DNA from: Phytophthora sp. 'mugwort'
Lineage: Eukaryota; Oomycota; Peronosporomycetes; Peronosporales; Peronosporaceae
NCBI GenBank assembly: GCA_033558025.1
Contig: JAUCEF010000010.1
Coordinates: 1,699,001-1,763,000, forward strand
Length of the DNA: 64,000 nt
Reading direction: 5' to 3'
Both the position numbers and the translations under genes were made by a program. Below are positions 4,069 to 26,570 of the stretch, one piece after another. The notes below the pieces were generated by a model. The model was not told the origin of the DNA. It made no database searches and saw only the letters and a program-made list of their open reading frames with translations. How positions within the stretch are numbered: the first letter of the stretch is position 1; the number at the start of each line of letters is the position of its first letter.

Positions 4069-4551
4069 ACGTTCGACAACTACACACCCTCCACCACCCA
4101 CAAACTCGACAATACCACACATATCACCCGTTGACGCTATCACTACGCCCATGTGCCTCTATTGCCCATCGCTGGCTCTGATCACAGCCTTTAAACTTCT
4201 ACTCGATCGGTAGTCACCATGTATGGTCCGAGTCAATTGCCAAACCAGCAGCCCAACGTATCGCTTTTGGCTTGTTTTGCAGGCGTCCAAGACACACAGG
4301 ACCGACACTACGTCCCGAGCGAGGCTCGAGACACACCCCGGCTCGAGCGAGTCGACTTTGACTCGGTCGAATGCCACCGACAGGAATCGATGCCGAGCCG
4401 CGACGGGCCTCCATTGTGTCGGGGTGGACATGGCTCCAGTGACGAAACCGATGCATGGACATGTCAGTGGTATCGCCGGACTGGCTGGGACGCAGGCGAC
4501 AGCGCCGCTGCAGCAAAAGTAGGATACGTGAGGCAAAAAGAGCAAAGGAGA

Positions 4552-4624
4552 TATCAGAGGAGGGGATCGAACCCTCGATCTCGAGCGTGTGAAGCTCGCG
4601 TCCTAACCACTAGACGACACTGAC
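4552..4624 (-). tRNA. tRNA-Val(CAC), array copy 9
   Basis: Same tRNA sequence. The spacer mixes CCAAGACAC (shared with copies 7-8) and CGCGACGGG (shared with copies 5, 11, 13), a mosaic consistent with gene conversion or crossing-over. Confidence 0.93.
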
Positions 4625-5107
4625 ACGTTCGACAACTACACACCCTCCACCACCCACAAACTCGACAATACCACACATATCACCCGTTGACGCTATCACT
4701 ACGCCCATGTGCCTCTATTGCCCATCGCTGGCTCTGATCACAGCCTTTAAACTTCTACTCGATCGGTAGTCACCATGTATGGTCCGAGTCAATTGCCAAA
4801 CCAGCAGCCCAACGTATCGCTTTTGGCTTGTTTTGCAGGCGTCCAAGGCACACAGGACCGACACTACGTCCCGAGCGAGGCTCGAGACACACCCCGGCTC
4901 GAGCGAGTCGACTTTGACTCGGTCGAATGCCACCGACAGGAATCGATGCCGAGCCGCAACGGGCCTCCATTGTGTCGGGGTGGACATGGCTCCAGTGACG
5001 AAACCGATGCATGGACATGTCAGTGGTATCGTCGGACTGGCTGGGACGCAGGCGACAGCGCCGCTGCAGCAAAAGTAGGATACGTGAGGCAAAAAGAGCA
5101 AAGGAGA

Positions 5108-5180
5108 TATCAGAGGAGGGGATCGAACCCTCGATCTCGAGCGTGTGAAGCTCGCGTCCTAACCACTAGACGACACTGAC
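5108..5180 (-). tRNA. tRNA-Val(CAC), array copy 10
   Basis: Same tRNA sequence; spacer identical to copy 12. Confidence 0.93.
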
Positions 5181-5661
5181 ACGTTCGACAACTACACACC
5201 CTCCACCACCCACAAACTCGACAATACCACACATATCACCCGTTGACGCTATCACTACGCCCATGTGCCTCTATTGCCCATCGCTGGCTCTGATCACAGC
5301 CTTTAAACTTCTACTCGATCGGTAGTCACCATGTATGGTCCGAGTCAATTGCCAAACCAGCAGCCCAACGTATCGCTTTTGGCTTGTTTTGCAGGCGTCC
5401 AAGGCACACAGGACCGACACTACGTCCCGAGCGAGGCTCGAGACACACCCCGGCTCGAGCGAGTCGACTTTGACTCGGTCGAATGCCACCGACAGGAATC
5501 GATGCCGAGCCGCGACGGGCCTCCATTGTGTCGGGGTGGACATGGCTCCAGTGACGAAACCGATGCATGGACATGTCAGTGGTATCGCCGGACTGGCTGG
5601 GACGCAGGCGACAGCGCCGCTGCAGCAAAAGTAGGATACGAGGCAAAAAGAGCAAAGGAGA

Positions 5662-5734
5662 TATCAGAGGAGGGGATCGAACCCTCGATCTCGAGCGTGT
5701 GAAGCTCGCGTCCTAACCACTAGACGACACTGAC
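5662..5734 (-). tRNA. tRNA-Val(CAC), array copy 11
   Basis: Same tRNA sequence; spacer identical to copy 16. Confidence 0.93.
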
Positions 5735-6217
5735 ACGTTCGACAACTACACACCCTCCACCACCCACAAACTCGACAATACCACACATATCACCCGTTGA
5801 CGCTATCACTACGCCCATGTGCCTCTATTGCCCATCGCTGGCTCTGATCACAGCCTTTAAACTTCTACTCGATCGGTAGTCACCATGTATGGTCCGAGTC
5901 AATTGCCAAACCAGCAGCCCAACGTATCGCTTTTGGCTTGTTTTGCAGGCGTCCAAGGCACACAGGACCGACACTACGTCCCGAGCGAGGCTCGAGACAC
6001 ACCCCGGCTCGAGCGAGTCGACTTTGACTCGGTCGAATGCCACCGACAGGAATCGATGCCGAGCCGCAACGGGCCTCCATTGTGTCGGGGTGGACATGGC
6101 TCCAGTGACGAAACCGATGCATGGACATGTCAGTGGTATCGTCGGACTGGCTGGGACGCAGGCGACAGCGCCGCTGCAGCAAAAGTAGGATACGTGAGGC
6201 AAAAAGAGCAAAGGAGA

Positions 6218-6290
6218 TATCAGAGGAGGGGATCGAACCCTCGATCTCGAGCGTGTGAAGCTCGCGTCCTAACCACTAGACGACACTGAC
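6218..6290 (-). tRNA. tRNA-Val(CAC), array copy 12
   Basis: Same tRNA sequence; spacer identical to copy 10. Confidence 0.93.
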
Positions 6291-6770
6291 ACGTTCGACA
6301 ACTACACACCCTCCACCACCCACAAACTCGACAATACCACACATATCACCCGTTGACGCTATCACTACGCCCATGTGCCTCTATTGCCCATCGCTGGCTC
6401 TGATCACAGCCTTTAAACTTCTACTCGATCGGTAGTCACCATGTATGGTCCGAGTCAATTGCCAAACCAGCAGCCCAACGTATCGCTTTTGGCTTGTTTT
6501 GCAGGCGTCCAAGGCACACAGGACCGACACTACGTCCCGAGCGAGGCTCGAGCACACCCCGGCTCGAGCGAGTCGACTTTGACTCGGTCGAATGCCACCG
6601 ACAGGAATCGATGCCGAGCCGCGACGGGCCTCCATTGTGTCGGGGTGGACATGGCTCCAGTGACGAAACCGATGCATGGACATGTCAGTGGTATCGCCGG
6701 ACTGGCTGGGACGCAGGCGACAGCGCCGCTGCAGCAAAAGTAGGATACGAGGCAAAAAGAGCAAAGGAGA

Positions 6771-6843
6771 TATCAGAGGAGGGGATCGAACCCTCGATCT
6801 CGAGCGTGTGAAGCTCGCGTCCTAACCACTAGACGACACTGAC
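6771..6843 (-). tRNA. tRNA-Val(CAC), array copy 13
   Basis: Same tRNA sequence; spacer variant identical to copy 5. Confidence 0.93.
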
Positions 6844-7326
6844 ACGTTCGACAACTACACACCCTCCACCACCCACAAACTCGACAATACCACACATATC
6901 ACCCGTTGACGCTATCACTACGCCCATGTGCCTCTATTGCCCATCGCTGGCTCTGATCACAGCCTTTAAACTTCTACTCGATCGGTAGTCACCATGTATG
7001 GTCCGAGTCAATTGCCAAACCAGCAGCCCAACGTATCGCTTTTGGCTTGTTTTGCAGGCGTCCAAGGCACACAGGACCGACACTACGTCCCGAGCGAGGC
7101 TCGAGACACACCCCGGCTCGAGCGAGTCGACTTTGACTCGGTCGAATGCCACCGACAGGAATCGATGCCGAGCCGCGACGGGCCTCCATTGTGTCGGGGT
7201 GGACATGGCTCCAGTGACGAAACCGATGCATGGACATGTCAGTGGTATCGTCGGACTGGCTGGGACGCAGGCGACAGCGCCGCTGCAGCAAAAGTAGGAT
7301 ACGTGAGGCAAAAAGAGCAAAGGAGA

Positions 7327-7399
7327 TATCAGAGGAGGGGATCGAACCCTCGATCTCGAGCGTGTGAAGCTCGCGTCCTAACCACTAGACGACACTGAC
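7327..7399 (-). tRNA. tRNA-Val(CAC), array copy 14
   Basis: Same tRNA sequence; spacer combines CGCGACGGG with the GTATCGTCGG variant. Confidence 0.93.
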
Positions 7400-7881
7400 A
7401 CGTTCGACAACTACACACCCTCCACCACCCACAAACTCGACAATACCACACATATCACCCGTTGACGCTATCACTACGCCCATGTGCCTCTATTGCCCAT
7501 CGCTGGCTCTGATCACAGCCTTTAAACTTCTACTCGATCGGTAGTCACCATGTATGGTCCGAGTCAATTGCCAAACCAGCAGCCCAACGTATCGCTTTTG
7601 GCTTGTTTTGCAGGCGTCCAAGGCACACAGGACCGACACTACGTCCCGAGCGAGGCTCGAGCACACCCCGGCTCGAGCGAGTCGACTTTGACTCGGTCGA
7701 ATGCCACCGACAGGAATCGATGCCGAGCCGCAACGGGCCTCCATTGTGTCGGGGTGGACATGGCTCCAGTGACGAAACCGATGCATGGACATGTCAGTGG
7801 TATCGTCGGACTGGCTGGGACGCAGGCGACAGCGCCGCTGCAGCAAAAGTAGGATACGTGAGGCAAAAAGAGCAAAGGAGA

Positions 7882-7954
7882 TATCAGAGGAGGGGATCGA
7901 ACCCTCGATCTCGAGCGTGTGAAGCTCGCGTCCTAACCACTAGACGACACTGAC
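7882..7954 (-). tRNA. tRNA-Val(CAC), array copy 15
   Basis: Same tRNA sequence; spacer has the CTCGAGCACACC variant of copies 5 and 13 but on a CGCAACGGG background. Confidence 0.93.
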
Positions 7955-8435
7955 ACGTTCGACAACTACACACCCTCCACCACCCACAAACTCGACAATA
8001 CCACACATATCACCCGTTGACGCTATCACTACGCCCATGTGCCTCTATTGCCCATCGCTGGCTCTGATCACAGCCTTTAAACTTCTACTCGATCGGTAGT
8101 CACCATGTATGGTCCGAGTCAATTGCCAAACCAGCAGCCCAACGTATCGCTTTTGGCTTGTTTTGCAGGCGTCCAAGGCACACAGGACCGACACTACGTC
8201 CCGAGCGAGGCTCGAGACACACCCCGGCTCGAGCGAGTCGACTTTGACTCGGTCGAATGCCACCGACAGGAATCGATGCCGAGCCGCGACGGGCCTCCAT
8301 TGTGTCGGGGTGGACATGGCTCCAGTGACGAAACCGATGCATGGACATGTCAGTGGTATCGCCGGACTGGCTGGGACGCAGGCGACAGCGCCGCTGCAGC
8401 AAAAGTAGGATACGAGGCAAAAAGAGCAAAGGAGA

Positions 8436-8508
8436 TATCAGAGGAGGGGATCGAACCCTCGATCTCGAGCGTGTGAAGCTCGCGTCCTAACCACTAGACG
8501 ACACTGAC
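8436..8508 (-). tRNA. tRNA-Val(CAC), array copy 16
   Basis: Same tRNA sequence; spacer identical to copy 11. Confidence 0.93.
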
Positions 8509-8991
8509 ACGTTCGACAACTACACACCCTCCACCACCCACAAACTCGACAATACCACACATATCACCCGTTGACGCTATCACTACGCCCATGTGCCTCT
8601 ATTGCCCATCGCTGGCTCTGATCACAGCCTTTAAACTTCTACTCGATCGGTAGTCACCATGTATGGTCCGAGTCAATTGCCAAACCAGCAGCCCAACGTA
8701 TCGCTTTTGGCTTGTTTTGCAGGCGTCCAAGGCACACAGGACCGACACTACGTCCCGAGCGAGGCTCGAGACACACCCCGGCTCGAGCGAGTCGACTTTG
8801 ACTCGGTCGAATGCCACCGACAGGAATCGATGCCGAGCCGCAACGGGCCTCCATTGTGTCGGGGTGGACATGGCTCCAGTGACGAAACCGATGCATGGAC
8901 ATGTCAGTGGTATCGTCGGACTGGCTGGGACGCAGGCGATAGCGCCGCTGCAGCAAAAGTAGGATACGTGAGGCAAAAAGAGCAAAGGAGA

Positions 8992-9064
8992 TATCAGAGG
9001 AGGGGATCGAACCCTCGATCTCGAGCGTGTGAAGCTCGCGTCCTAACCACTAGACGACACTGAC
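8992..9064 (-). tRNA. tRNA-Val(CAC), array copy 17
   Basis: Same tRNA sequence; spacer carries GGCGATAGCG, a change found only here and in copy 19. Confidence 0.93.
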
Positions 9065-9543
9065 ACGTTCGACAACTACACACCCTCCACCACCCACAAA
9101 CTCGACAATACCACACATATCACCCGTTGACGCTATCACTACGCCCATGTGCCTCTATTGCCCATCGCTGGCTCTGATCACAGCCTTTAAACTTCTACTC
9201 GATCGGTAGTCACCATGTATGGTCCGAGTCAATTGCCAAACCAGCAGCCCAACGTATCGCTTTTGGCTTGTTTTGCAGGCGTCCAAGGCACACAGGACCG
9301 ACACTACGTCCCGAGCGAGGCTCGAGACACACCCCGGCTCGAGCGAGTCGACTTTGACTCGGTCGAATGCCACCGACAGGAATCGATGCCGAGCCGCGAC
9401 GGGCCTCCATTGTGGGGGTGGACATGGCTCCAGTGACGAAACCGATGCATGGACATGTCAGTGGTATCGCCGGACTGGCTGGGACGCAGGCGACAGCGCC
9501 GCTGCAGCAAAAGTAGGATACGAGGCAAAAAGAGCAAAGGAGA

Positions 9544-9616
9544 TATCAGAGGAGGGGATCGAACCCTCGATCTCGAGCGTGTGAAGCTCGCGTCCTAACC
9601 ACTAGACGACACTGAC
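9544..9616 (-). tRNA. tRNA-Val(CAC), array copy 18
   Basis: Same tRNA sequence; spacer has the 2 bp deletion TTGTGGGGGTGG found only here and in copy 20. Confidence 0.93.
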
Positions 9617-10099
9617 ACGTTCGACAACTACACACCCTCCACCACCCACAAACTCGACAATACCACACATATCACCCGTTGACGCTATCACTACGCCCAT
9701 GTGCCTCTATTGCCCATCGCTGGCTCTGATCACAGCCTTTAAACTTCTACTCGATCGGTAGTCACCATGTATGGTCCGAGTCAATTGCCAAACCAGCAGC
9801 CCAACGTATCGCTTTTGGCTTGTTTTGCAGGCGTCCAAGGCACACAGGACCGACACTACGTCCCGAGCGAGGCTCGAGACACACCCCGGCTCGAGCGAGT
9901 CGACTTTGACTCGGTCGAATGCCACCGACAGGAATCGATGCCGAGCCGCAACGGGCCTCCATTGTGTCGGGGTGGACATGGCTCCAGTGACGAAACCGAT
10001 GCATGGACATGTCAGTGGTATCGTCGGACTGGCTGGGACGCAGGCGATAGCGCCGCTGCAGCAAAAGTAGGATACGTGAGGCAAAAAGAGCAAAGGAGA

Positions 10100-10172
10100 T
10101 ATCAGAGGAGGGGATCGAACCCTCGATCTCGAGCGTGTGAAGCTCGCGTCCTAACCACTAGACGACACTGAC
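10100..10172 (-). tRNA. tRNA-Val(CAC), array copy 19
   Basis: Same tRNA sequence; spacer identical to copy 17, so copies 17-18 and 19-20 form a duplicated dimer. Confidence 0.93.
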
Positions 10173-10653
10173 ACGTTCGACAACTACACACCCTCCACCA
10201 CCCACAAACTCGACAATACCACACATATCACCCGTTGACGCTATCACTACGCCCATGTGCCTCTATTGCCCATCGCTGGCTCTGATCACAGCCTTTAAAC
10301 TTCTACTCGATCGGTAGTCACCATGTATGGTCCGAGTCAATTGCCAAACCAGCAGCCCAACGTATCGCTTTTGGCTTGTTTTGCAGGCGTCCAAGGCACA
10401 CAGGACCGACACTACGTCCCGAGCGAGGCTCGAGACACACCCCGGCTCGAGCGAGTCGACTTTGACTCGGTCGAATGCCACCGACAGGAATCGATGCCGA
10501 GCCGCGACGGGCCTCCATTGTGGGGGTGGACATGGCTCCAGTGACGAAACCGATGCATGGACATGTCAGTGGTATCGCCGGACTGGCTGGGACGCAGGCG
10601 ACAGCGCCGCTGCAGCAAAAGTAGGATACGTGAGGCAAAAAGAGCAAAGGAGA

Positions 10654-10726
10654 TATCAGAGGAGGGGATCGAACCCTCGATCTCGAGCGTGTGAAGCTCG
10701 CGTCCTAACCACTAGACGACACTGAC
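10654..10726 (-). tRNA. tRNA-Val(CAC), array copy 20 (right edge)
   Basis: Same tRNA sequence. It shares the 2 bp deletion with copy 18. The spacer to its right starts to diverge (CCAGCACCACAAATTGAC and others) and fades out near 10862, as expected at the edge of a tandem array. Confidence 0.93.
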
Positions 10727-10862
10727 ACGTTCGACAACTACACACCCTCCAGCACCACAAATTGACAATACCACACATATCACCCTTGACGCTATCACTA
10801 CGCTCATGTGCCTCTATTGCCTATCGCTGGCTCCGATCGCAACTTCATATTTCCACTCTATC

Positions 10863-11868
10863 CCGCAGATTTTTGCTATGGCCCGAAAGTAATTTTTGAT
10901 ATTTTTCTGCGAACCTTGACGTGACCTAGAGTAGCTTTTATTATTTTACTCCTAATTAAGCTTCTTACTGGCGACGGTAGTGCCAGAAGGTGGGCTGGAT
11001 TGATGGTATGATGGGAGAAAATACATTACGAGCTACTCACCGTGACTACGCAATCGATCAAGGCAACAACCCGTTCGAAGTCAGCAAGATCTGTTATAGT
11101 GGTATAAGCTACAATATCGTGGTCTGGGGTTTTCAAACAGCTTACGATGTTAGTTAAAAAAAACAGTAGTTGCTCCAATAAAAGTTATCTTTCCACTCCG
11201 AGAAATCGGTATGGTGGGTCAGATACGCGAGAGACATGAGCTGCTCACTTGAAGATCATCAAAACATTGAAAAAGGAATCTAAAGCGACAGATCGTCCGA
11301 GCTGTTCACTTCTTGAAGAATTAAGCGGCGAGGTCGCTAAAGCACTCACTGCGAAATATGCTTGGCGCTCACTACCTTCAGAAGGTATGATCATAGCGTA
11401 TTTTCAAGGAGAGTGAGTGCTGCGCCCAACTGAAAAAGTAGGGGGTGAAAGTTGCGTTAAAAAAAACGACCATCGGAGGAGAGCGGTTGCGAGCGCGCGT
11501 ATCCATAGCAAACCCGCGTGGGGTGCCGCGAAGCAGGGCCGTGCGCTATTTGCGGAGGCGGGCCCAGCGCCGAGCTTTCCAGCGGGCCGAGCACTATAGC
11601 GGGCCAAACTTAGAATCTTCGCAGGAGCGCAGAGACTGCCTTTGCGAAGCAAATCCCAAGACCGCGATGCCATCGGTCCTCGAAAGGGCTAGGGTAAAGG
11701 ATAATGTGAGACATTCCATACAAAACATAAGTTTAAACTAAAACTGTGACGCGGCGCGTTGGGCGCAGCAACTCGTGCCATTTTCCAAACACTGAAGAGT
11801 TAGCGATTGCAGACCGCCGAGCTTAATGTTTGGTGGTTATAGCAGGTTACTGTTTAAATTAATGTCAA
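10863..11868. other. Intergenic; no gene recognised
   Basis: Mostly AT-rich unique sequence with a GC-rich patch at about 11480-11600. Short open frames occur in the patch on both strands, but none resembles a known protein and none has gene-like context. Confidence 0.6.
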
Positions 11869-11941
11869 GCGCGGCTGGCGCAATGGATAGCGTATCAGAC
11901 TTCGAATCTGGGGGTTGCGGGTTCGAGTCCCGCGTCGCGTA
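11869..11941 (+). tRNA. tRNA-Arg(TCG)
   Basis: Full cloverleaf. Acceptor GCGCGGC/GTCGCGT (with wobbles), D stem GCGC/GCGT, anticodon stem TCAGA/TCTGG with loop CTTCGAA giving anticodon TCG (arginine CGA), T arm GCGGG/CCCGC with loop TTCGAGT, discriminator A. A TTTT tract at 11945-11948 is a plausible Pol III terminator. The same sequence is repeated in opposite orientation at 14849-14921. Confidence 0.93.
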
Positions 11942-13277
11942 CACTTTTAGTAGCTAGCCTAAACACCCACAGTGCCGACCAAAAGGTAAACCTAACGTAG
12001 CCAATCTGAAATATTTTCCCGTCAACTTTGACAGCTGTGGCGTGTTCATGCTGAATAAACCAATTAAATTTGAGTACAATCGGGATAGTGTTGAATAGAC
12101 TTTCTTTTTTTCCGGGGTTGTATCTGAGATTGGTCTAAGGGTTAGCGCACTATTAATAACTTGATTTTAGAATGTTACTTATGTACAAAATGTGTACACT
12201 ATGTGAACATGGCGCAGAATCCGATGAAAACGGATAGGGGCGCCTCCGAGAGTGAATTCCTCTACGATAGAAGATGTACAGACGTTGTCTCTGGAGGAAG
12301 TGCTAATAGCTATAGTCGTTTTTTAGGTGTGTGTGTGGGGGGGGGGGGGTAAATCTGGTGCCTACGAAGGATTTCTCCAGGAATCTATTTTCACCCTATA
12401 TACTCTGTCGAGATGAATATTCGCTTTAATTAATTTAATTTAATAATATTTAATTGATCCTACTATCGCTGGCCAGAAAAAGAATGTGCATCTCAACAAC
12501 GATATGTCCCAGGTAAATTTTGTTGTGAATGAAGAATGCTTTTCACGGTTAGCGCTATGCATGTACGTATGCGCAGAGCACGAGGGTACGCGGGTCGTTG
12601 GTTCTGCGCTGATAGTGAGAATGCTCCAAGGTTTCCTGCTAGTGGGATTAGTCCTGCAAAAGTTTGTCCACTACACAGTGTAGTAACTTAAGAGTAAGAC
12701 TTGCCTATGAGGCAGAAAATTTAAGGCGGGGGGGGGGGGGGGGAGGGTGGGGGGGAGGGTGGGGGGGGCGTTGCTGCCTGCTGAACATCCAACGCAAGTT
12801 TCCACTAGTGACTATGTGCTGACCTTGTACAGTAGCTTCGTTGCGGTTTCGAATAACGTCCACTCCTTGCTATTTAGTAGTATAATCCTTCTTCACCGGG
12901 CCCACAGCGTACATCACCCACTGCTACCACTTCTTCATTATCGCACTGATGCTGTTTCTTCGCCACTTTCAGTTGTTTCACATCCCCACCTATCCAACCA
13001 TCGTGAATATCGGATATTGTCCGAAAATGCTTCACCTTCTAGCTTCGACACTTCATGTCCGGCACAAACACAGCGGTCGTTGTCGCATCTTCACCATTAC
13101 CAGTCATCGGCACTGAGTATCGTTTTGAACTCGAATCTTTATAGTCGATATTCGCACTCCTAGTTGGAGCAGATTATCAGCATGAAATCCACTACTCAGT
13201 CACACGCGCTCGGTTGATGGAAACTTCGTAATAGTCTAACTTCCATACTCATCTTACACTTCGGTATCCTCACTGCC
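11942..13277. other. Intergenic with poly-G tracts; no gene recognised
   Basis: Contains a 13 nt G run at 12337-12349 and a longer G-rich block at 12725-12770. A 138-codon open frame at 12747-13163 begins in the poly-G block and has no recognisable domain, so I do not call it a gene. Confidence 0.55.
12725..12770 (+). repeat. Poly-G block with G-quadruplex potential
   Basis: A run of about 16 G is followed by G3, G7, G3 and G8 blocks separated by single A or T bases. At least four G tracts lie within 46 nt. Length may be uncertain because homopolymers are error-prone in sequencing. Confidence 0.8.
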
Positions 13278-13500
13278 TTGCTTTCAGCGCCCCTGGACAC
13301 ATGCAACGGAAACCATTGGTGCGCGATTATTATCAGCCTCGATTCCGCCAACATTTTCACGTACGATTCCATGACCTCCAGTTACATCGGTCGCGCACAA
13401 GCTGGTGGGCATTCTACCGAGCCTGGACAGAAAGCGCTACCACTTTCGTCCTTACGAGACCGACATGGTATATTCTGTTTGCAGGTAATATTGCGTGTGT
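13278..13500 (+). pseudogene. Ulp1-like (C48) cysteine protease fragment
   Basis: The frame starting at 13278 reads GNHWCAIIISLDSANIFTYDSM, in which a His-Trp and, about 16 residues later, Tyr-Asp-Ser match the catalytic His and Asp region of Ulp1/SENP-type (peptidase C48) proteases. The frame then breaks, similarity continues for only a short distance, and the catalytic Cys region is absent. A TTGCTTTCAG just before the conserved part could be an old intron acceptor. Such proteases are often carried by Mutator-like or CACTA transposons. Whether this was a host or a transposon gene cannot be told. Confidence 0.45.
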
Positions 13501-13591
13501 TGAAGCGCCGGTTTGCATATGTTGTGCATGTGTGGGTTTGCGTGAGTTATAGAATATTGTTGGTACAAATATATGTTCATGAAACCAAATG

Positions 13592-13663
13592 TTTTCTATA
13601 GCTCAGCTGGTTCAGTATCTGTATGCGAGCAGCAGTTAGCGGGTTCGAGTCCCGCTTTGACCA
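13592..13663 (+). pseudogene. Degenerate tRNA-like sequence
   Basis: It has GCTCAGCTGGTT like a D arm, a perfect T arm (GCGGG TTCGAGT CCCGC) and an intact B box. However, the 5' acceptor strand (TTTTCTA) does not pair with the 3' strand (TTTGACC) and the anticodon stem has a mismatch. If the loop is read literally the anticodon would be CGA, but position 33 is G instead of U. Best read as a tRNA pseudogene or a tRNA-derived repeat end. Confidence 0.5.
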
Positions 13664-14848
13664 CAACTTTTGCATCTTCCCACTGCATATGGAATGCCTG
13701 ATGAGGTTAGAAAACTCACCGTAGCAAAGACAGTAGAAGACATGAGTTAGGAAGGTAGAGAACAATAAGGACATCAATCCCATTCACTTTTTGTTTTGCA
13801 ACCTCGCCAAGAAGCCTTCTTCATCGACTCGCCCCGCACGCTCTTCCTCTCCTACTTTTATGGTTGAAAAATATGTGTCAACTCGCTAACTATGAAAATT
13901 TCATTTTGAAATTTCACCGTTGCGGAAAACGGAGCTGTCCTTGGCGAGAGCCACTCACCCCGCACACTCTTCCTCTCCTACCTTTATATTCAAGTCGACA
14001 AAAAAACTACAACTGCAGTATGTCGTCCTCCTAGCGTTCGAGTCATTTGCTGGTCGGGGCGACACAGGCCGAGTGGATTCAAAACCCATGCAATACTTGC
14101 GCTACAGGTACCTGTGCATGTGCATTTAAGCAGGTTAGGACATAGATAACAATGCTAATTAAAGCAATTCTTAGTTAACAACATAAGCGTACCTTCATAT
14201 CCATTTTTTCGGTGGTAACATCGGCAAAGGCGGCGGCACCCAGCTATCTTCGGTCTCATATATCGAGTCGAAGAGCTCTGCAAATGCCTCCTGAAATCTT
14301 ACTAGCCGAGCGCTGCCGCGTACGCGGCGGTGGGTTTAGTTTTGGTCCCAGTAGGTGGGCTGTTTATGCGCTGCAGTCGAAGCCCCTCAAGACCGAGCGG
14401 GGCGGCACGGCCTCCATTTCCAGTAGCAGGCTAAAAATATACATCAAGTTTAAACCAATCGTTAATTTATATATTTCCACCAATGGCCGCCTTCGGCGGT
14501 GGAATGATGTTTTAGCCAATGGCGGCCCGCCTTCGCTGCGCTCGGCAGCCAGTGAGATTGCGTCTAGAATTCACGTGATGGCGTGACAGACGGACGGAGC
14601 AACGTTAGCGTTGAGTTTTAGAATGCGGATATTCGTATACTGCTGTCACACATTAAATGATGACAGCCGTCCGGCTCTCTATTGTTCGGGTATATTTGGG
14701 ATGATTCAGGCATGTTCGGGATCAATTTCTCCGTCACATGTAGACCCGTTCGGGATCAATTATTATTGTCCCATCAAATACCGACTTCCTTCGAAAAACC
14801 CAGATTTAGATGAACTACATGTAAAGTCTGGGCCAAGGACAAAACCTA
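13664..14848. other. Intergenic; GC-rich palindromic patches
   Basis: No protein gene recognised. Short GC palindromes such as GCCGCGTACGCGGC (about 14308-14321) and GCCGCCTTCGGCGG (about 14487-14500) resemble those at about 40332-40348, so these may be remnants of one dispersed repeat. Confidence 0.45.
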
Positions 14849-14921
14849 TACGCGACGCGGGACTCGAACCCGCAACCCCCAGATTCGAAGTCTGATACGC
14901 TATCCATTGCGCCAGCCGCGC
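14849..14921 (-). tRNA. tRNA-Arg(TCG), second copy
   Basis: The reverse complement is identical to the tRNA-Arg(TCG) at 11869-11941, with all stems intact. A TTTT tract (14841-14844 read on the minus strand) follows the 3' end. Flanking sequences of the two copies are not obviously similar beyond a few bases 5' of the gene, so they are not part of one long inverted repeat. Confidence 0.93.
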
Positions 14922-15986
14922 TTGTGCCTGAGAGTATTTTGCTGTATCAAGTGTGGTGGTTTCTGTATATTCTAACGGCTTGTGTACAAACCTCCTAACT
15001 CATAAGATTTACGCCTGCTCTCCATTTTGATAAAATAACAATTTATAAAAAAAACGCTTATCAGATCCGACAATATCACTCAACTTATTCGAAACCGCGA
15101 AACCACTGCTATCCGGTGACGTGGTGATTCTCTAACAATAAAATTACCTGCGTCACTTCAATTGCCAAAACCAAAGTCAACGAATTCAAATCTGGTGTTG
15201 CGGGGTATCATCAAACATTGTTTGACGTACAAAAACAATCTTAAGGCCAGGGCACACGGATACACTAGTAGCAAACTACAGTCATTTTAGTGTGCGTTTA
15301 TCGCGCAACATTTGAGTAATCAATCCGCCAAGCAAGTTTCTTTAGGCCTCTCTACTCGCTTACATCGATTTCCGAATGCGGCTTGTTCTGGCTTCTGGGA
15401 GACTCTTACCTTTTATTTGCTTGCTCTTCCGATGTTTCGCTCCGACACAGTGTGAGGTGATGCGCAGAACAGTCGTCAAGTTGCTGTCGATGATGTGCAG
15501 GCGTATCAAATGTTGAAGTCAAATTTCAATAGAGCATGTACTACAGCGGCGGAAATGATAGACGAAAAACTGGTTTTGGTATTCCAATCAAAAGAAATCA
15601 AAACAAGCGTTTCAGCCAATGAAAGCTAATAACTGCGGTTCATTTACGGTGCAGCTTTTGTAATACGACAACTAGCTACTTAAGCTATATAATCTGTCTT
15701 CAACGAAAGTACCTCGCGCGGAAAAGATAGATGAGGTAAGCATTCTTGCATCTAAAAGTAATACCGATGCCTCCTACAGCGCTCCAAACTTGAGTCTAGA
15801 TAACTTACACACCCTGACAAAGTTTGACGTACATTAAGAGAAAAATGAATTCACTAACAGGTTGGATCAGTTATATAGACAATGGATCGGAAATGGGGTA
15901 GGCTGGTCATCAGGAGACCAATACATCGCATAACAAGAAGAATACACGCATTCCTCATATATATTAATCTGTTTATATTAGATAAG
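14922..15986. other. AT-rich intergenic; nothing recognised
   Basis: Stop-rich in all frames, with no RNA gene or repeat boundary that I can support. Confidence 0.5.
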
Positions 15987-18349: not shown

Positions 18350-19503
18350 TTGTACAGTTTCTTTCCTGATCCATCTCGCTGGCACTTCTTGGAAGAAGAA
18401 TTTGACAACAGCCACACTTTGTATGCCTATTGCAATAAGTGAACGACGGTACTAGCTTTCGCGGTAGGGAATCTCAAACTGACAGAGCATATGACGAAGT
18501 ATCAAGGTCGCGAGCTGACAGAGTACGCAGCAGCCAATAAGTTGCAACGCATATTAGAGAAGGAGTTTGTCGAAGTTGCCGTGGAGTTCCGCACGATCAA
18601 CTCCGAAGAACAAAAGGAATTCAAACAGACTCCTAGCAAAATGGATTGCTAGCCACTTTCGTCCATTGATTTTGTTGAAGACAAAGGGTCCATTACTTTC
18701 TTCGCATTTATTACGAAACATTGTTTAGGGTCAAAGTGATAATGCCAAAGCGCACTCAGTTGTGTGGCTATATCGTTGGATTTTGCCGCTGAGCTCAGAC
18801 TTCAAGTTCGGGATGATATTAAGCAGTTTTGTCTGTATTGTTCGATCACCAGTTATATTTGGTCTGCTCGCAGTTACATTGTGTCCACAATTCACTATTT
18901 GACCGAGAACGTTTTTGGCCAGAAACTGGACTCTGGAGGTAAAAGAACGTCCGAGTATCCACACAGGCGAAGTCATTGCTAAGCTTACAGCATTAGATGA
19001 AATCATGCTGGAATGGAAGCTCCCAAAAAAAGAATTATGTCCTCGATTTGTCAGGGATTCTGGTTCCAACATGGTCAAAGTCGGAAAACTCGTGAGCATC
19101 TACTGTAGCATGCTCCTTGCATGGCTTACGAATTCATCTTGTTCTCTCTGGACATTGGCGACCCAAAACAAGTCGTTGGATAAACCGAAACCGGCATGGG
19201 CGTCTATTGTTGACATGGAGGAAGATGCGGTCGCCACCGACACGAGATTGATGAGGATCTAAATGACGACGAGAGAGCCGATATGGAGGCTGTTCGCGAT
19301 ATGGCAGTTGATGAACTTGGTAGCTTTATTAACGCGATATTGGCGACATTGGAAAAGGATGTCATGCAAACCATGAGGGAGATCGTCCAAACGTTCCGTT
19401 CGCTAGCTGTATATTTTCGGCGGTCCACCGAAGCACATAGTTGTCTTGAAGTCATTCAGAAGACAAATAATCCACAAGCAGCAGCATTTCCAGTTGTCGA
19501 TTG
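18350..19503 (+). pseudogene. hAT transposase, N-terminal half (split by Harbinger insertion)
   Basis: Several frames in order give a BED-finger-like region (WHFLEEEFDN ... YAYCNK, then NLKLTEHMTKY), ENWTLEVKER-like and LPKKELCPRFVRDSGSNMVK motifs around 18915-19080, and after a frameshift a stretch ending in PQAAAFPVVD at 19501. This is the arrangement of ZBED/hAT-family transposases. The frame is broken by several stops and shifts. It stops exactly where a Harbinger-type element begins (19504), and the matching C-terminal half resumes at 25601. Confidence 0.72.
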
Positions 19504-19556
19504 GATGCCTGCCAAATATACGTTATACACCCGCCTTATCTGCAGCAGATATGCCG
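19504..19556 (+). repeat. Left terminal inverted repeat of the composite Harbinger element
   Basis: Matches the reverse complement of about 25546-25597 at roughly 80% by eye, including the shared block CCGCCTTATCTG-AG-AGATA. Confidence 0.8.
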
Positions 19557-19914
19557 GGTCATATGCCCGACATAAATATTGTGAGACGCAGATTTCGTCT
19601 CGATAATCTACCCTAGCCCTAGCTATATTCTGTGAAGCCATCATAAACGTTTGTCTTAATATTTGTATGGTTTAATAGGACCATCACTCTTGGCTGCGTT
19701 CCCACCACTCTGCTGACTTATCGCCTGCATTATATCTTCCGACGGACCGAAACGTCGCTCACTTTTAAATCTGGGCGCGAAAACAGCAAGACGACTTCAA
19801 CCTAAGGTGCGTAAAGATCATCACGAGTGCTATCTTCAGCTAAACCTAACTTGCTGTACGCTACACGCTCAATAACCATGGTGCACGTGATCCACTCCTC
19901 GACACACTGGACCC

Positions 19915-20816
19915 ACCGCTGCATCATGGACTCCAGTGATGAAGAAAACACGCCGCCCAATGTCCTCGCGTCCTCGCGCCACCGTCCGATGAGGACAAGG
20001 CCGGCTTCAAAGATGACATCAGTGGACCGGGCACGGCAACCCCTCCGTGGTTCTCGCCCGAGTGTATGAAGGAGCGGTCGAAGACCGTGACGAACCCACC
20101 ATCCACCCCTGAGAAGACGGCTGTGTCGCCACCTTCGCTTCACCTACGAGTAGCAAGCCCGACCACTTCTTGGCCAGTTCTCTTTGAGACCCCGCCCAGC
20201 GCGAGCATTTTAACCCGTTTGCGACGATCTCCCCGACGGTTCCCCACTTTGGCTCCTGTGGCTGCGAGAATCCCTGCCGAAGCAAGACCTGCCGCAATAC
20301 CCGCGTGAACGTCTACTGCAACGTCAACTGTTGTCCGTATGAGGGCAAATGTGGCAACGGACTAGAGGATTCAAGCAACGTGTTGCTGGGATGCAACGTG
20401 TGCACGAACCAGTTGGCCGTGGTCGCTGCCGAAGACATCAGCGCTGGTGAGGTGCTGGGCCAATATCTCGGCGAGATCGAGCACGTTACTGTTTCTCGTG
20501 TTGGCCGCCCACGAAACGGAGGCTACCGCCTCGTATTGAAGCAACGCCCGGAAAAGCGTTCCTACTCGATCTGTGCGGCGATCAACGCGGAGCGTATGTG
20601 CAGTCTGATGAGGTTTGTTAACCATTTGTTCAAGCCCGTGGCACTGTTCATCGAGGTGGTTAACGACGTCGCACGACCGTGATCGTGGTAATAACCGAAG
20701 ACATTCATCGCGGCCAAGAGGTGACTGTGGACTACGGCGACGACATTTGGTTTGTCTGCCGCTGCCAGCTGGAAGGGTGCGTCCACCGCGATATCCAAGG
20801 TGACCAGGATCCATGA
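19915..20816 (+). pseudogene. SET-domain protein gene, frameshifted
   Basis: An acidic/Pro-Ser-rich N-terminal part (from about MDSSDEENTPP) leads, after a frame change near 20200, into a Cys-rich pre-SET-like segment (GSCGCENPC, CRNTRVNVYC, CCPYEGKCGNGL) and a SET core: AAEDISAGEVLGQYLGEIEH, RFVNHLFKP (the usual RFxNHSCxPN motif, with Ser-Cys changed to Leu-Phe) and VTVDYGDDIWF, followed by a C-x-C...C post-SET segment. SET domains methylate lysines, typically on histones. A frameshift near 20670 puts a stop in the middle of the core. The damaged NHSC motif and the shifts make it a pseudogene. It lies inside the Harbinger element, so it is probably cargo. Confidence 0.75.
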
Positions 20817-21354
20817 GTAGGCTGCGGCGGTGCACGGGCGCCAAGGTGAGGTCGGTCGTCGTGTAGTTATGATGCTTCTGCAGCAACATGTATAGGTGTA
20901 TGAATGCAATGAAAGTGGCGGTAGGTGGTGAAAATGGTGGGTCTATTAATGTCGAATGAGGTGCACGCAGCCAAGCTGCCGGCGCCGACGTCGTATTTGA
21001 CGTGACATTTGTGCGTGTTGGCGCCAAAGTGGATTTCAAGAGCCCGGTCGAAGTTTTTGACTTGCATTTTGTATCGTTCGCTTTGCGCGCGCAGATTTCG
21101 CGCGTTGAAGTTGCTGCAGAGCTGCTACTTTTGGTGATCCTGTTCAAATCGGTGGTGGCGGAAGCTTTGAAGCGGGGCAGATTGCTGCGTTGCTCTGCGC
21201 GTTCGCTTCTCACTTTGGCTTTTGCCTCGAATCGAAAAGACTTCCATCCTCCGCCACCTCCTCTGCAAACCCTCCCAGAACGAAGCCCCAGTCTCCGTCG
21301 CCTGTGTCTCGCCCTCTATCCTCCTGACGTTGCCGTGCTGTGCATGTCTACAGA

Positions 21355-22300
21355 TGGGCAAGAACTCCGGAAACACCAAATACACCATGGCTGACGTTAC
21401 CCCCTCCCGCACCTCGTCGAGCTGTCACTTCCGCTGGGTAAGGATGAATGGGAGCGCCTGGCGGTGACTTTCAACTCCGGACGGGCTCGTGGCTCGCCCG
21501 AGCCTGACCTCGAAAGCTTGCGGCGCAAGCTTTCGAAGTTAGGCTCTTTAAAGCTGTACAGCACTCGCAAACCGACGGGGATGCCGAACATTCCCCCGCA
21601 CATCCTGAAGGCTAAGGAGCTCAAGCAGGCTACCGATGAAAGGCCATTGTCATCGAAACGGATGACGAAGCGGACCGAGACGAGCGCCTCATCGAATCCG
21701 ATTCTCTTTCGAAGCCAACACGGACGACAGTTTTTTTGCGAACGGCGACGGGGAAGGCGTGCACTTGGCCACCGACAACAACGAGCCCAGACTCGACGAC
21801 TCGACTGTCACCGACGGTTCGGTTGCGAGGCAGCAACGGCTTCCAGGCTCACGTCTACGACCGGCGAGTTCCAGGATCTGCTCGCATCGCCCGTGGTCAG
21901 TGAAGGTCTGGAAGCGTTCGCACGAATACCACGCCCAGCGCCACTGCGAGCGGATCGAACCACAGACGCTTCGGGTGCTGCTGGAGGATCGTCGAAGCCG
22001 CGCAAGACTGCTGCCAACACTGCGACGAGCAACGCTTCGATTCCGGCGGAGCAGCTAGCAGTACAAGGTCGATTGTTTGGAAAGCGCGACGACAACAAAA
22101 AAGAAGTCGAAGTATCAGAGCTTTTCCAACCATCTCGGGGGAGGCGATTTGTCGGACTTCCGTTATATCTTCGGCGCCAAGCGTACTCTCGAAGAAGACA
22201 AGGAGAAGCTCGAGGCCAGTTACGCGAAGGCCACCACCGCGCTCAAGACCAAAATGGCCGGCCTCGAGAACGGAGCCAACAACATGGGAAATGACTCGCT
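21355..22300 (+). pseudogene. DUF6818-type (Myb/trihelix-like) gene, N-terminal part
   Basis: From the ATG at 21355 the sequence reads MGKNSGNTKYTMADVT, and after a frameshift LPLGKDEWERLAVTFNSGRA, then DLESLRRKL and STRKPTGMPNIPPHI: the signature of the oomycete DUF6818 family, which I know as a Myb/SANT-like putative DNA-binding domain found in transposon-rich oomycete loci. The later part has AANTATSNASIPAEQLAVQG and a charged stretch ending ALKTKMAGLENGANNMGN at about 22290. There are at least three frameshifts. PIF/Harbinger elements normally carry a Myb/SANT-like second gene, and this gene sits in that position. Confidence 0.65.
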
Positions 22301-22304
22301 TCCA

Positions 22305-23630
22305 CTCGAAGCCTCCCTTTCAAGCGCTGTCTTTTTTCAGGGCGACTGCGGCACCCCCTTGCAGTCGTGCAGTGACTCCTCGTCGCTCTGAGCACTCGCA
22401 GGCGAAGTGGCCGGGCTGATGGCAGTCGTGGCAGCACATGTTTTGGCGTGCCTTGACTGGTCAGCGGAGCTAGGGCTCCCATATCGAGCACGATAAGCTG
22501 GCTTGTGCTTGTGCTCGACAGTGCGGGTTGTGGGTTGATCAGACCTCGCTATTGGTCGACTCCCTTCATACTTCACTCTTCTGAATTTACCTGGATTGCG
22601 CCGTGCTGTGTCGTCCGACGTTCATTGCGGTAACTGGCCATCACTTTCTGCCATGTACGCTAAGTGGTCAACGAGGCGATGCCCGTCACGGCGGAGTTTG
22701 AAATCGGAAGCCTCTCCACGAACAACTTGAGCTCATCAAAGTACTTAAGGTAAGATCTTGATGAAAGTGTGTATTGCATGACGAGCATTAGCCTCCACTG
22801 CCAAACCTCCAGGCAGTGAGTCTGCCATGTTCATCAGTCGCTGAGCGTACTCCTGGTAGGTTTCTGCTCGCATCTTCGGCTCTGCCATGAGTCTGCTCAG
22901 AAGTTCTTGCTCGGGAAGCTTTGACTGGAATTTATGCACAAGTAAATTGTTCGCGACGGATAGCGTTAAACTCTGGGGAGACATCCTTACTTCCAGAGCC
23001 AATCCGCGGCGTCACCAGTGAGCGAAACAGCGAAGCGACTGAGGCACTGCAATCCGTCCAGCGGTGACCATCGAGAATTCGAGCGTCGTTCAGCTGATTG
23101 ACAAACTTCCTCCACCGGAGCTTGGTTCTGGTGTCGAAAGCACCGATCGACACGGCTCCCGAAAACGGTTCAATGATGAGGTTCTCGCGGTTGGGTCTTC
23201 CTCCAGCAGGCAAATTCTCGATTTCGTTGAACAAAAATGATCGAACTGGCTGCTGGTGCTCAAGGCAGTTAGCCACCGACGGTGCAGCAACATTGGGCAT
23301 CATATCGCTTTCAAGCGCGGGAGGAGCAACCCTTGAGGCTGCGTTCCGGGCCTGGCCGTCGTTGGATTGCCCTAGGCGCAGTGAGGCTTGTTGGGGAGTT
23401 GCATCGGCCTCGCCGCCATCATCGGTACCTTCTCTTGACACTGGTTTTTCTTGGAGGATTGGACCTCTGGATGAGGCTTGCGTGCTCCGTCCAGGGCGTT
23501 GCGTAGGGTTGTCGACTGGCCTTAGGCCTTGCCTGTACAACGATGATTCACGCGCCCACGAACTTGCCTGGGACTTGGCGCGCTCTTCGTAGCTTGGCGT
23601 CCTCGAGAACTGACAGCTGCTAGCCGAATC
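22305..23630 (-). pseudogene. Ty3/gypsy-like gag fragment inserted in the DUF6818 gene
   Basis: Read on the minus strand from about 23630 it gives an open N-terminal region (YEERAKSQASSWARES, then the 202-codon frame 23540-22932), a gag-like LPEQELLSRLMAEPKM ... YAQRLMNMADSLPGG segment (23002-22745), and near 22420 a perfect zinc knuckle CHDCHQPGHFACEC (C-x2-C-x4-H-x4-C). Gag proteins package retroelement RNA and the knuckle binds nucleic acid. No LTR, protease or reverse transcriptase is present, so only the gag part remains, and it is frameshifted. Confidence 0.7.
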
Positions 23631-23633
23631 GGT

Positions 23634-23905
23634 GGGGGAAGGCAGAGGCTCGTCGTGCCGAAGAAGATCAACGTCGCCGTGATGACATTGCTGCTCGTGA
23701 GGCGCGGTTTCTTGCGGACAAGGCAGAGGCCGTAGACAAGATCGATATGGCGGAACGTGCTCGCCGTGATCACGAGGAAGCCCGGGCTCGCACGCAGCAA
23801 CTGATGCTGATTATCCAAGCAATCACCAAGAATTCCTTAGCTGGACTCAATATGGGTTTCTCAGGGTATGCAGAACGAAGTGAGGCTCTCCAATTCATAT
23901 TGTAG
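23634..23905 (+). pseudogene. Probable C-terminal coiled coil of the DUF6818 gene
   Basis: A plus-strand frame of about 90 codons starts KAEARRAEEDQRRR, continues through ADKAEAVDKIDMAERARRD and ends QFIL before a stop at 23905. It is strongly charged with heptad-like spacing. DUF6818 proteins end in such Glu/Arg-rich coiled coils, and the first part of the gene stops at about 22300, so the simplest reading is that the gag fragment split one gene. The join cannot be proved by eye. Confidence 0.45.
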
Positions 23906-24013
23906 TCGTGTTGTACGTAGCACTAAGCCTCCAAACTGACTAAGTCAAACAATGTTACATGAAAATCATTCAAAGTTATCCGTTGGTCACCTGCCTGCGT
24001 CTTCTGTACAGCT

Positions 24014-25325
24014 TTACAACCTACTCCAGTTGTGCTGGCATCTCCATTTGGTATTTCGCAAATCCGCGAAGTTCGTGCGGATTTGCGAAATACCTACCGT
24101 TCGCACACGGTAATTCGCCATGCGGAACAGGTTATTTAGCCGGAGCCCACGAAGCTCAGGGTCGTAGGGTAGCGGAAGACTGAGGCGGCTAGACGTTTTG
24201 AACGCTCCCCATTCTCCATTGAGCCGCCTGCCGTACGGAAGTGATCGCATTATGCATCGTCCGGGCGGAACTCCTGAGTGATGGCCACAGTCGTTCCAGG
24301 TTCCGTCCTTAAGCGGGTGGGATTCGTCCGGCCACCGCGGTCGAACACGGGAAGGCGGAGTCCGACACAACGTTCACCCTCGCGTCGGGGCAGTGGACGG
24401 GATCCTGCAACTTGGCCCGAAAGCCGAACGAGGTGTCGGAGTCGTTCCACGACCCCGGACAATTATGTCTGCACCACACGATGCTCCCGTCGGCGGCGAA
24501 GCAGATTGTCCCGGTTACGAAGACGGAATGAAGCCAGCCATTGTCTGCCGGTCGGCGTTGGACGGCTGCTGGACCTACACAATAATAGGTGTTAATATGG
24601 TAATAATCATTGCTGTCAAAGAATGTTTTTCGTATACCTTGAAGTTTTTTTCCGTCTATGAATCCAAATGTGTACTTGAGCAGAGGCTCGCGGGCTTCGA
24701 CTAGCTTCGACAGTTCCGTTTGACGGGCAGGAGACGGCCATGAAATCCGCGCAGGTGCGTAGTTGCTGAGGGTTTTGGACACCATTTCCTCGGCCCTCAT
24801 CGACGTGCGCGACAGAGTACTTGTTACTTGGGGGTGCACCAAACAACATGCACAAGCTGCCCAGCTCCATCGAGCCGACATAGAAACACAGTAGAAGTCA
24901 CAAGACCTGGTGATAGTAACGGAGCTTGGGTGTGCGGCCCCTCGATTGCGTACGCGGGATGTAGTAGAAGCGGGTAAACCGCCTAAGCAGTTGGTGAACG
25001 CAGGTCTGCACTCGTGCATGTAGCAGCAAAACATGGTAAATAGATAGTTGGTTTAAAACACAGCAACATTGGTGTCATACCTCGTCAAACCCGTAGCGTT
25101 CAGGAAGTTGAGGTCGGTGCCGTACTTGTACAACACTATCCACGCTGAGTCACATGGCGTGTCTAAGCACTGGACCGTCGAGTAGTGGTGGCTCCGCATC
25201 GCAATCTTCCTCGCCTTCTTTACTAACAAGCGAAACACCTCCCGCCTCACCTCGCTCAGCTTCTTAACTTTATTCTCGACGGCGCCGGCCACCACCAGCA
25301 ACACGTCCGAGTCCTCGTCCGTCAT
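24014..25325 (-). pseudogene. PIF/Harbinger DDE_Tnp_4 transposase (element 1)
   Basis: The N-terminus starts MTDEDSDVLLVVAG (25325) and runs to GTDLNFLNATGLTR, where a GTATGA donor suggests a short intron. After it, partly in another frame, come LGSLCMLFGAPPS, ISWPSPARQTELSKLVEARE and FGFIDGKKL (first catalytic Asp). A second intron-like GTATAC...TGTAG follows, then NGWLHSVFVTGTICFAADGS, WCRHNCPGSWNDSDTSFGF and VVSDSAFPC (second Asp). Finally GEWGAFK (Glu) and LSLPLPYDPELRGLRLNNLF lie near 24150. The D-D-E order fits PIF/Harbinger transposases, which cut and paste DNA at 3 bp targets. At least three frameshifts inactivate it. Confidence 0.82.
24050..24094. repeat. Perfect 18 bp inverted repeat, 9 nt loop
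   Basis: Arms 24050-24067 and 24077-24094 are exact reverse complements (GGTATTTCGCAAATCCGC) around loop GAAGTTCGT. It lies at the 3' end of the Harbinger transposase relic. Confidence 0.9.
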
Positions 25326-25545
25326 CTCAGCTGACTGCTTGTGCACAACTTGAAGAATGACAAAATCTGGAAGTGTGTGTGCCCGACATGTCCGAGACAA
25401 AGTGTCGGGTACATTCTAAGGCACTAAAAAGCTATGGCTGTTGGCGGATTCAGGGCCGTATCAGTAGGACGCGGGTAGTAGCTGTACGACACTTGCGGTG
25501 GACGTTTTTATCGATAAATCGACATATATCTTTTTTTATGCCGGC

Positions 25546-25597
25546 CTTATCTACTACAGATAAGGCGGTGACATAATGCATATTCGGCAGGCTTCCA
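25546..25597 (-). repeat. Right terminal inverted repeat of the composite Harbinger element
   Basis: Partner of 19504-19556 in inverted orientation; followed by the TTG target duplication at 25598-25600. Confidence 0.8.
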
Positions 25598-25600
25598 TTG

Positions 25601-26570
25601 TCTCACTCGTTGGAATAGTAGCTGACTTATAATGACTCGACGTGTCCCCTTCAGTTTTGATAAATTATTTGAGCATTTATTTCCCGACGAGCTCTGCTTG
25701 GAGTTCAAAGATATTAGCAAGACGTTGCTAAAGCCTAATCACCAGGCATTACTGGCTATCAAGTGTCAATGTGTTTTGCTGGAACCGATTGCGACCGTCT
25801 CAACTCAGCTGGGTGGTCAAGCGTATCCAGCACTGCCGCTTGTCATGCCTGCAATCGAGGCCCTAAAAGACGTTCTGAAGGATAGCAAAGGTTTTGGTGA
25901 CATCTTAAATTCTGCCGGGGAGGAGACCTACGTGGAAGAAATTCGAGTGCTTCTGAAAGATTGCCAAGCTGTGATTAGGAGGTTGTTTGACAAGCGATTT
26001 GCAAAGTTGAAGTCGATCGATCTGGACTGGATTGCATACTTAGGTTCTTGAGTGGCCAGCGAAATGAACCATTTGACAGTTGAGATCGCGTCGAACGCTC
26101 GAACTCAATTTCTTGCCGCCGCTGCTGAGTTTACACCTGATCGTATACCTTCTGAGAGCACCGGTACCTTGTCTGGAACAACAGCGAAAGCCCGCGATCG
26201 CGTAACTAGCCGTATGTTTGGCAAGAAGAAATCTGCGGAAGCACCTGCGAGCGGGATTTTAATGAATATTTGGCGGCTGCCAAAATGCTGGACACTTTGA
26301 CTGATGAAAAGTTCAACAACTTCGACTGGTTGCGCGCTAACAAGGGGTCGTATCCTATTCTCAGTAAATTAGCACGTAAATGGCTGGACTGTTGCAACAA
26401 GCGTTCCGTCAGAGCGAGCTTTTTCTACCAGCGCAAACACCATCAACGCTAAGCGCAGCTTGGCTCCGGGTTGGTTAGGGATCTCGTATTCGTCGCGGAG
26501 AACACACATAAGAAAAAAAAAACAGTTCAGCGTGAAGGCGAAACAGCCAGCGAGGCGTATTTGCTGTAAC
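25601..26570 (+). pseudogene. hAT transposase, C-terminal half (split by Harbinger insertion)
   Basis: Directly after the target duplication the frame reads LTRWNSS, the conserved Arg-Trp motif of hAT transposases, and continues (past a TGA at 25623) with FDKLFEHLFPDEL, then STQLGGQAYPALPLVMPAIE. After another in-frame TGA at 26049 it gives MNHLTVEIASNAR, and after a frameshift SYPILSKLARKWL and SVPSERAFSTSANTINAKRS, the hAT dimerisation signature, ending near 26570. Placing this after the N-terminal half and counting one TTG copy restores VVDCLTRWNSS in a single frame, so the two halves are one gene. Confidence 0.8.

Follow-up and report, generated by a model that had tools for sequence, protein, structure and literature searches.

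The locus described here raises the question of whether a SET-domain gene, which encodes a putative histone methyltransferase, is a standing part of a DNA transposon or a gene that one copy happens to carry. It lies in a 64-kb stretch of Phytophthora sp. 'mugwort' DNA (contig JAUCEF010000010.1, positions 1,699,001 to 1,763,000), hereafter the window, where an original prediction had placed a Harbinger-type element with SET, DUF6818 and DDE_Tnp_4 transposase genes between inverted ends. SET-carrying Harbinger transposons of Phytophthora have been named HarbingerS (Kojima and Jurka 2014, Repbase Reports 14:2243, as cited in a passage of PMC12730594). We consider, with a probability of about 0.85, that the window element is a dead transposon of the HarbingerS type, similar to the Pangu group of the PHIS transposons. 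This reading draws on the gene layout, a target-site duplication (TSD) of the form ANT, the insertion into a repeat, and a SET gene that is restricted to one clade, co-inherited and selected. The label refers to gene content: a Harbinger-type DDE transposase and a SET gene are present inside the same terminal repeats, the likeness to HarbingerS being one of description only.

Layout and history of the SET gene

The genome (86.26 Mb, 154 contigs) was scanned with the proteins of the window element; the scans score the best candidates only, and all counts of places are therefore lower bounds. The SET protein gave 51 matches, which merged into 42 places, and the transposase gave 90 matches in 63 places. 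SET-transposase pairs at most 6 kb apart numbered 19 (of the 42 SET places; 0.37 expected), and all 19 were convergent. After the addition of Pfam scans for SET (101 matches) and DUF6818 (62 matches), the merged places were 115 for SET, 63 for transposase and 59 for DUF6818. A SET gene was present within 6 kb of 21 of the 63 transposase places, where about one was expected, and 19 of the 21 also had DUF6818. Every one of these 19 triples has the same arrangement, in which SET is followed by DUF6818 on the same strand and the transposase converges on both, as in the window element, where the SET gene lies inside the ends as predicted. The remaining transposase places are accompanied by SET only in 2 cases, by DUF6818 only in 20 and by neither gene in 22.

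The 20 places with DUF6818 only resembled a refutation of the SET gene as a part of the element, and nine of them were read. L023, which is among the six elements first delimited, retains parts of the SET gene and has lost its core. L066 to L069 hold SET remnants at the expected position (E 4.5e-20 to 4e-7). In L065, L070, L071 and L072 no SET was found, with nothing better than E 0.009. Thus, the expectation that all copies would have the three genes holds for the 19 triples and fails for L023 and L065; same-ended copies do not lack the SET gene throughout, and related elements have it at the same place. Overall, 25 of the 115 SET places are no more than 6 kb away from a HarbingerS-type transposase or DUF6818, and therefore HarbingerS explains only a part of the SET surplus; the suggestion that this family accounts for the many SET genes of oomycetes was correct to that extent.

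In other Phytophthora species, SET and DUF6818 are joined in two database proteins, P0167 (P. nicotianae) and P0185 (P. infestans). Judged by locus-tag numbers alone, SET and DUF6818 adjoin in PI124_g12110/g12111, transposase and DUF6818 adjoin in DVH05_009143/009144, and SET and transposase are near each other in PC121_g13797/g13799, PI125_g8242/g8240 and PI125_g3615/g3618.

A maximum-likelihood tree of the transposase was made from 37 sequences, comprising 23 genome elements and 14 of the 120 listed database proteins. One clade (ultrafast bootstrap 99) contains the 14 SET elements, L023, L066 to L069 with their SET remnants, and L065, together with database transposases, among them P0094 of Pythium; the presence of SET was scored for the genome elements only. 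L070, L071 and L072 form a clade of their own (96) outside the SET clade, and P0146 of a chytrid (Globomyces) joins the SET clade with a support of 100. Since the SET elements are confined to one transposase clade, the SET gene was most likely gained once, by an element in which DUF6818 and the transposase were already present, and later lost in L023 and L065.

The trees of SET and transposase, the agreement of which the original prediction had raised, share 7 of 11 splits over 14 elements, whereas 10,000 label shuffles gave 0.29 common splits on average and 4 at most, none reaching 7. This comparison omits e23, in which the SET core is deleted, and e24, e38, e41, e43 and e45, for which the transposase sequence is lacking. 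The idea that the SET gene came in later, as an independent insertion bounded by ends of its own, is hardly credible against this background. No support for it was found, although a TSD of the SET gene's own was not searched for as such; the position of SET, which is the same in all 19 triples and in the remnants, and the tree common with the transposase speak against it. The layout, the trees and the single clade refute it as far as sequence can.

Selection on the SET gene was estimated by the ratio of nonsynonymous to synonymous differences per site (pN/pS). In eight between-family pairs, the SET core gave 0.34-0.47 in seven, and all upper 95% limits were below 1. For the window element (W) and two other elements, the values were 0.38 (W-e21), 0.34 (W-e22) and 0.36 (e21-e22), with upper limits below 0.5. 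The transposase gave 0.38, 0.54 and 0.49 for the same three pairs and 0.78 for W-e20, and it ranged from 0.31 to 0.56 over the eight between-family pairs. Among close pairs, the SET ratio was 0.79 (0.54-1.29) for W-e20, 0.74 with an upper limit above 1 for a second pair, and 0.39 (0.21-0.71) for e22-e031, and the transposase ratios of the same three pairs were 0.78, 0.76 and 0.71; the close-pair ratios are as expected for mostly decaying copies. In a wider comparison set, pN was lower than pS in all 105 transposase pairs, in 170 of the 171 SET pairs and in 89 of the 91 DUF6818 pairs. At the level of these codon comparisons, the ratios show past purifying selection on the SET core in all eight between-family pairs.

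One could suppose that the SET gene is passenger cargo, captured from the host and of no use to the element. The SET gene of the window copy is broken, and L023 and L065 have kept both DUF6818 and the transposase without a SET core or without any SET; thus, movement may not need SET. However, the constant place and orientation in the 19 triples, the co-inheritance, the restriction to one clade and the upper pN/pS limits, which stay under 1 in all eight between-family pairs, make mere cargo very improbable.

Several observations weigh against the HarbingerS reading with a co-inherited and selected SET gene. SET and transposase distances correlate only modestly in a Mantel test (r 0.36, p 0.03; with one of three close copies, r 0.38, p 0.036), and one supported conflict between the trees exists, among the close copies W, e19 and e20. 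Support for the deeper branching of the transposase tree is low (39-52), and the tree was rooted on one chytrid sequence. As for selection, e035-e21 has a weak SET ratio of 0.66 (0.52-0.79), synonymous sites between families are near saturation, and the codon maps were assembled from tblastn matches with some out-of-frame noise. Furthermore, the structure model of the SET protein, from an alignment of 18 sequences, was poor and unusable (pLDDT 43), and a Foldseek search with the DUF6818 model gave 94 matches at E <=10, none of them at E <=0.001.

Limits, target sites and decay of the window copy

The element spans 19503-25596 (6,094 bp), and its inverted ends begin with GG. The inverted ends of about 50 bp in the original prediction correspond to arms of 57 nt each (19502-19558 and 25541-25597), which are 77% complementary and form an imperfect inverted repeat. 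Within the 64-kb window, the terminal 11-mer GGCAGGCNTCC is present at two places and no others, namely 19503-19513 (minus strand) and 25586-25596 (plus strand), with a chance expectation of 0.12 from shuffles. The features are listed in Table 1.

Table 1. Positions of the window element and its parts, numbered from the first letter of the window
Feature	Position	Strand	Basis or remark
TSD, left copy, ATT	19500..19502	.	register fixed by L021, L023, L028/L057
5' terminal inverted repeat, begins GGATGCCTGCC	19503..19558	+	arm pairing, 11-mer
SET gene remnant	19878..20816	+	N-terminus ~19878-19985; pre-SET cysteines and SET core ~20200-20813
DUF6818 gene, first part	21354..22289	+	domain 21431-21643, E 4.9e-21, above Pfam cut-off
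1.35-kb dispersed repeat with long minus-strand frames	22290..23636	.	later insertion splitting the DUF6818 gene
DUF6818 gene, last part, charged C-terminal stretch	23637..23905	+	
Harbinger/DDE_Tnp_4 transposase gene, decayed	24014..25340	-	ends approximate
3' terminal inverted repeat, ends in GGCAGGCTTCC	25541..25596	-	arm pairing, 11-mer
TSD, right copy, ATT	25597..25599	.	register fixed by L021, L023, L028/L057

Because a G follows the target, the TSD of the window element can be read as ATT, TTG or ATTG, and the original prediction had chosen TTG with limits at 19504 and 25597. However, L021, L023 and L028/L057 permit only a 3-bp ANT, and therefore the window element is 19503-25596 with ATT as its TSD. 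TTG is ruled out, and the predicted element stands with its limits shifted by one base. The other perfect TSDs are compatible with ANT. Nine of ten two-ended elements have a perfect 3-bp ANT duplication: ATT in the window element, L023 and L028/L057; ACT in L019 and L020; AAT in L021, L022 and L031/L058; and AGT in L039/L061. The tenth, L027/L056, has an imperfect duplication (ACT versus ACG). A start with GG or AG was observed at 19 of the 20 ends of these ten elements, AG being that of the 5' end of L028, and the sole exception is the 3' end of L019 (GA). The element-like L024 and L025, for which no 3' end was found, stand outside the TSD count, and L035/59, L037/60, L040/62, L046/63 and L047/64, with no two-ended TSD, stand outside the ten.

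Two sites without the element, C7:1845122-1845387 and C7:4940554-4940823, match the joined flanks (positions 1-263) at 86% and 85%, respectively, each with a single ATT. These are paralogous empty sites, and the element was inserted into a pre-existing repeat. The flanks themselves, 19400-19502 and 25600-25700, are an older repeat with copies on C7; three frames beside the element had no Pfam match.

The gene order in the element is SET and DUF6818 on the plus strand and, convergent to them, the DDE_Tnp_4 transposase on the minus strand, and all three genes are decayed in the window copy. Relative to L019 and L020, its closest copies, in which SET is damaged too, the window SET lacks about 250 bp near 20200. 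It also has a frame change near 20664, and it reads NHLF where 14 of the 16 relatives having the region read NHSC. Its Pfam score is 21.5 bits, just under the cut-off of 22.4, and its relative P0002 scores 63.7 bits. The DUF6818 domain, found in the genome scan at C10:1720431-1720643, belongs to a gene that is split by the 1.35-kb repeat. This repeat is not part of the original element; the two closest copies lack it and carry about 46 bp at that point, and other copies of it are at C9:841245 (94%), C6:2687729 and C4:3274346 (both 84%). Its minus-strand frames look gag-like by eye; two of them gave no significant Pfam match. Two in-frame stops (25053-25055 and 24309-24311) and a frame change near 24190 interrupt the transposase, which also has Q at the conserved glutamate column 328; of the 33 sequences with a residue at this column, 31 have E. 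The predicted DDE_Tnp_4 assignment is borne out, with 18.2 bits in the decayed copy (below the cut-off of 24.8) and 56.4 bits in the relative P0047. The window copy is thus dead and too broken for any present effect on chromatin.

Outside the element, the window contains a tandem array of 20 tRNA-Val (CAC) genes at 112-10727 on the minus strand, with a unit of about 555 bp, and two inverted tRNA-Arg (TCG) genes at 11866-14924, one at each arm of an inverted repeat of 99 nt whose arms are 2.9 kb apart.

The SET protein, its partner and putative role

We found 38 relatives of the SET protein, and those with a named organism are all from Phytophthora; the two best-scoring ones have 78% and 60% identity over 95% of the query. 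Most relatives, for example P0003 (P. fragariae), retain NHSC, the VDYG..LWF stretch and the cysteines of both the pre-SET and the post-SET region, and losses were observed in P0006 (NYSC and AAYG), P0032 (NHSY) and P0027 (one pre-SET cysteine). We infer that the intact SET protein may be catalytically active. In a search of the PDB with P0003, the best match was NSD2 (E 8.8e-13), followed by 3ooi, which is an H3K36/H4K20-specific enzyme, ASH1L, EHMT2 and NSD3.

A SET tree of selected domains was made from 14 of the 16 fetched genome SETs (without L086 and L087), 4 more SET loci, 10 database proteins and 11 elements. The element SETs and the unpaired places L043 and L044 are monophyletic (100). 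This clade adjoins other multi-copy SETs of the genome, in a joint group with a support of 100, and the joint group then joins L073 and L074 (93), which we take to be host genes of the SETD2/NSD/ASH1 kind from the look of their sequences.

Three other sets of SET places were observed in the genome. L082, L084 and L088 (C7:1092782, C16:487963 and C18:99171) are multi-copy, closely alike SETs distinct from those of HarbingerS, perhaps carried by another transposon lineage. At G000:C6:2740706-2747412, two equal-scoring, inverted SETs flank a third, HarbingerS-like SET (C6:2744242), and this region is possibly a long inverted-repeat element. The SETs at C4:716859 and C4:751310, which score equally and lie 34 kb apart in opposite orientation, suggest an inverted duplication.

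The second gene product was predicted as a Myb-like DUF6818 protein. The DUF6818 assignment is significant (Table 1), whereas the Myb-like character found no significant sequence or fold match in the PDB. Only two weak matches (E 0.2 and 0.42) came out of a profile search of the PDB, and the structure model consists of three short N-terminal helices, predicted with low confidence, and a single long helix. DUF6818 was mentioned in no paper of the literature searched.

In a possible mechanism, the transposase would cut and paste the element at ANT sites, with DUF6818 as a putative DNA-binding partner, and the SET protein would methylate histones on the element's own chromatin. An H3K36-type mark could then oppose host repression and keep the element transcribed. 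Since the nearest solved relatives are NSD2 and ASH1L, anti-silencing rather than self-repression would be the likeliest single role of the SET protein, at somewhat less than even odds. One possible alternative is self-restraint, in which a repressive mark on the element limits the harm to the host. H3K9-type enzymes are matched too (EHMT2, 5tuy, E 6.8e-9; Clr4, 1mvh, E 2.9e-6), and Phytophthora small RNAs from SET genes hint at silenced loci: six SET genes are listed in a 2013 study, with mostly 24-30-nt RNAs, like several other gene families (a passage of PMC3804510). However, NSD2, the H3K36-specific 3ooi and ASH1L are the better matches, and small RNAs against SET loci would reflect silencing by the host and not the action of SET; we therefore regard self-restraint as unlikely, if still a serious candidate. 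The substrate may also be another protein, since SET enzymes can act on non-histone proteins in general, and the transposase or the DUF6818 partner would then be methylated. SET does adjoin DUF6818, to which it is joined in P0185 and P0167, but these joined proteins may be artefacts of gene prediction, and we hold this possibility to be quite unlikely.

Going further with the anti-silencing role, one may imagine a single early capture, in Phytophthora or perhaps in wider oomycetes, of a host NSD/ASH1-like SET gene by a Pangu-like transposon, which would have retained it as a weapon writing an active mark on its own copies. The related SETs across oomycete transposon lineages would then be a shared tool kit against heterochromatin. 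This scenario is speculative, and its odds are lower than those of the anti-silencing role itself.

Comparison with known systems

The original prediction took a transposon with its own SET gene to be unusual; however, the kind is already known as HarbingerS, and SET genes occur also in other transposons, as described below. As judged from passages of the literature, the points that seem to be added here are ANT as the target duplication, the empty sites, a single origin of SET, the history shared by SET and transposase, the past purifying selection and the SET-less relatives; the 2014 reports could hold some of these points. The literature searches turned up no functional study of HarbingerS. 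In transposons that bring along chromatin enzymes of their own, the struggle of mobile DNA against silencing by the host becomes open to direct tests. The HarbingerS SET gene appears to be an old, selected and co-inherited part of an element with a visible target rule, and natural comparisons lacking SET are available in L065, L023 and the outside group L070 to L072. The signs of a single gain, of selection and of co-inheritance of SET make the element well suited to the study of how a transposon might manipulate chromatin.

Canonical PIF/Harbinger elements have a 3-bp TSD of the TWA type, whereas the elements here have ANT. Such canonical elements also encode a Myb/SANT partner protein, and the second gene here encodes DUF6818. 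In contrast, the Pangu group has ANT duplications, terminal repeats usually starting with AG or GG, and a second open reading frame beside the transposase, as observed here, according to the available text of PMC4482050 (Han et al. 2015), which is inconsistent on this second frame (no known motif versus a Myb/SANT domain). The same study placed HarbingerS-9_PI in the Pangu clade and found no TSD for it, whereas ANT duplications are present here. Pangu elements average about 3.5 kb (PMC4482050), and L019 to L023 are about 4.4 to 5.6 kb; a SET gene is present here, and a word search for it in the text of PMC4482050 gave 0 occurrences.

The human gene SETMAR incorporates what was once a transposase, and it is not a transposon's own gene. 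The proto-Helentron of P. infestans is a transposon, and its study is reportedly that of Thomas et al. in 2014. SETMAR (PMC8327481) has a SET domain tied to DNA-transposon biology, as is the case here, and the proto-Helentron, as described in passages of PMC4067079, is likewise a Phytophthora transposon with a SET gene, but one with rolling-circle movement, an unrelated transposition enzyme and a SET compared with Clr4. SET genes occur also in Phytophthora MuDR elements, according to a passage of PMC12730594. The same paper (Kojima 2025) describes fungal DNA transposons carrying TET/JBP genes, some of them of the Harbinger type; like the element here they carry an epigenetic enzyme, which is a DNA dioxygenase in the fungal transposons and a putative histone methyltransferase in Phytophthora.

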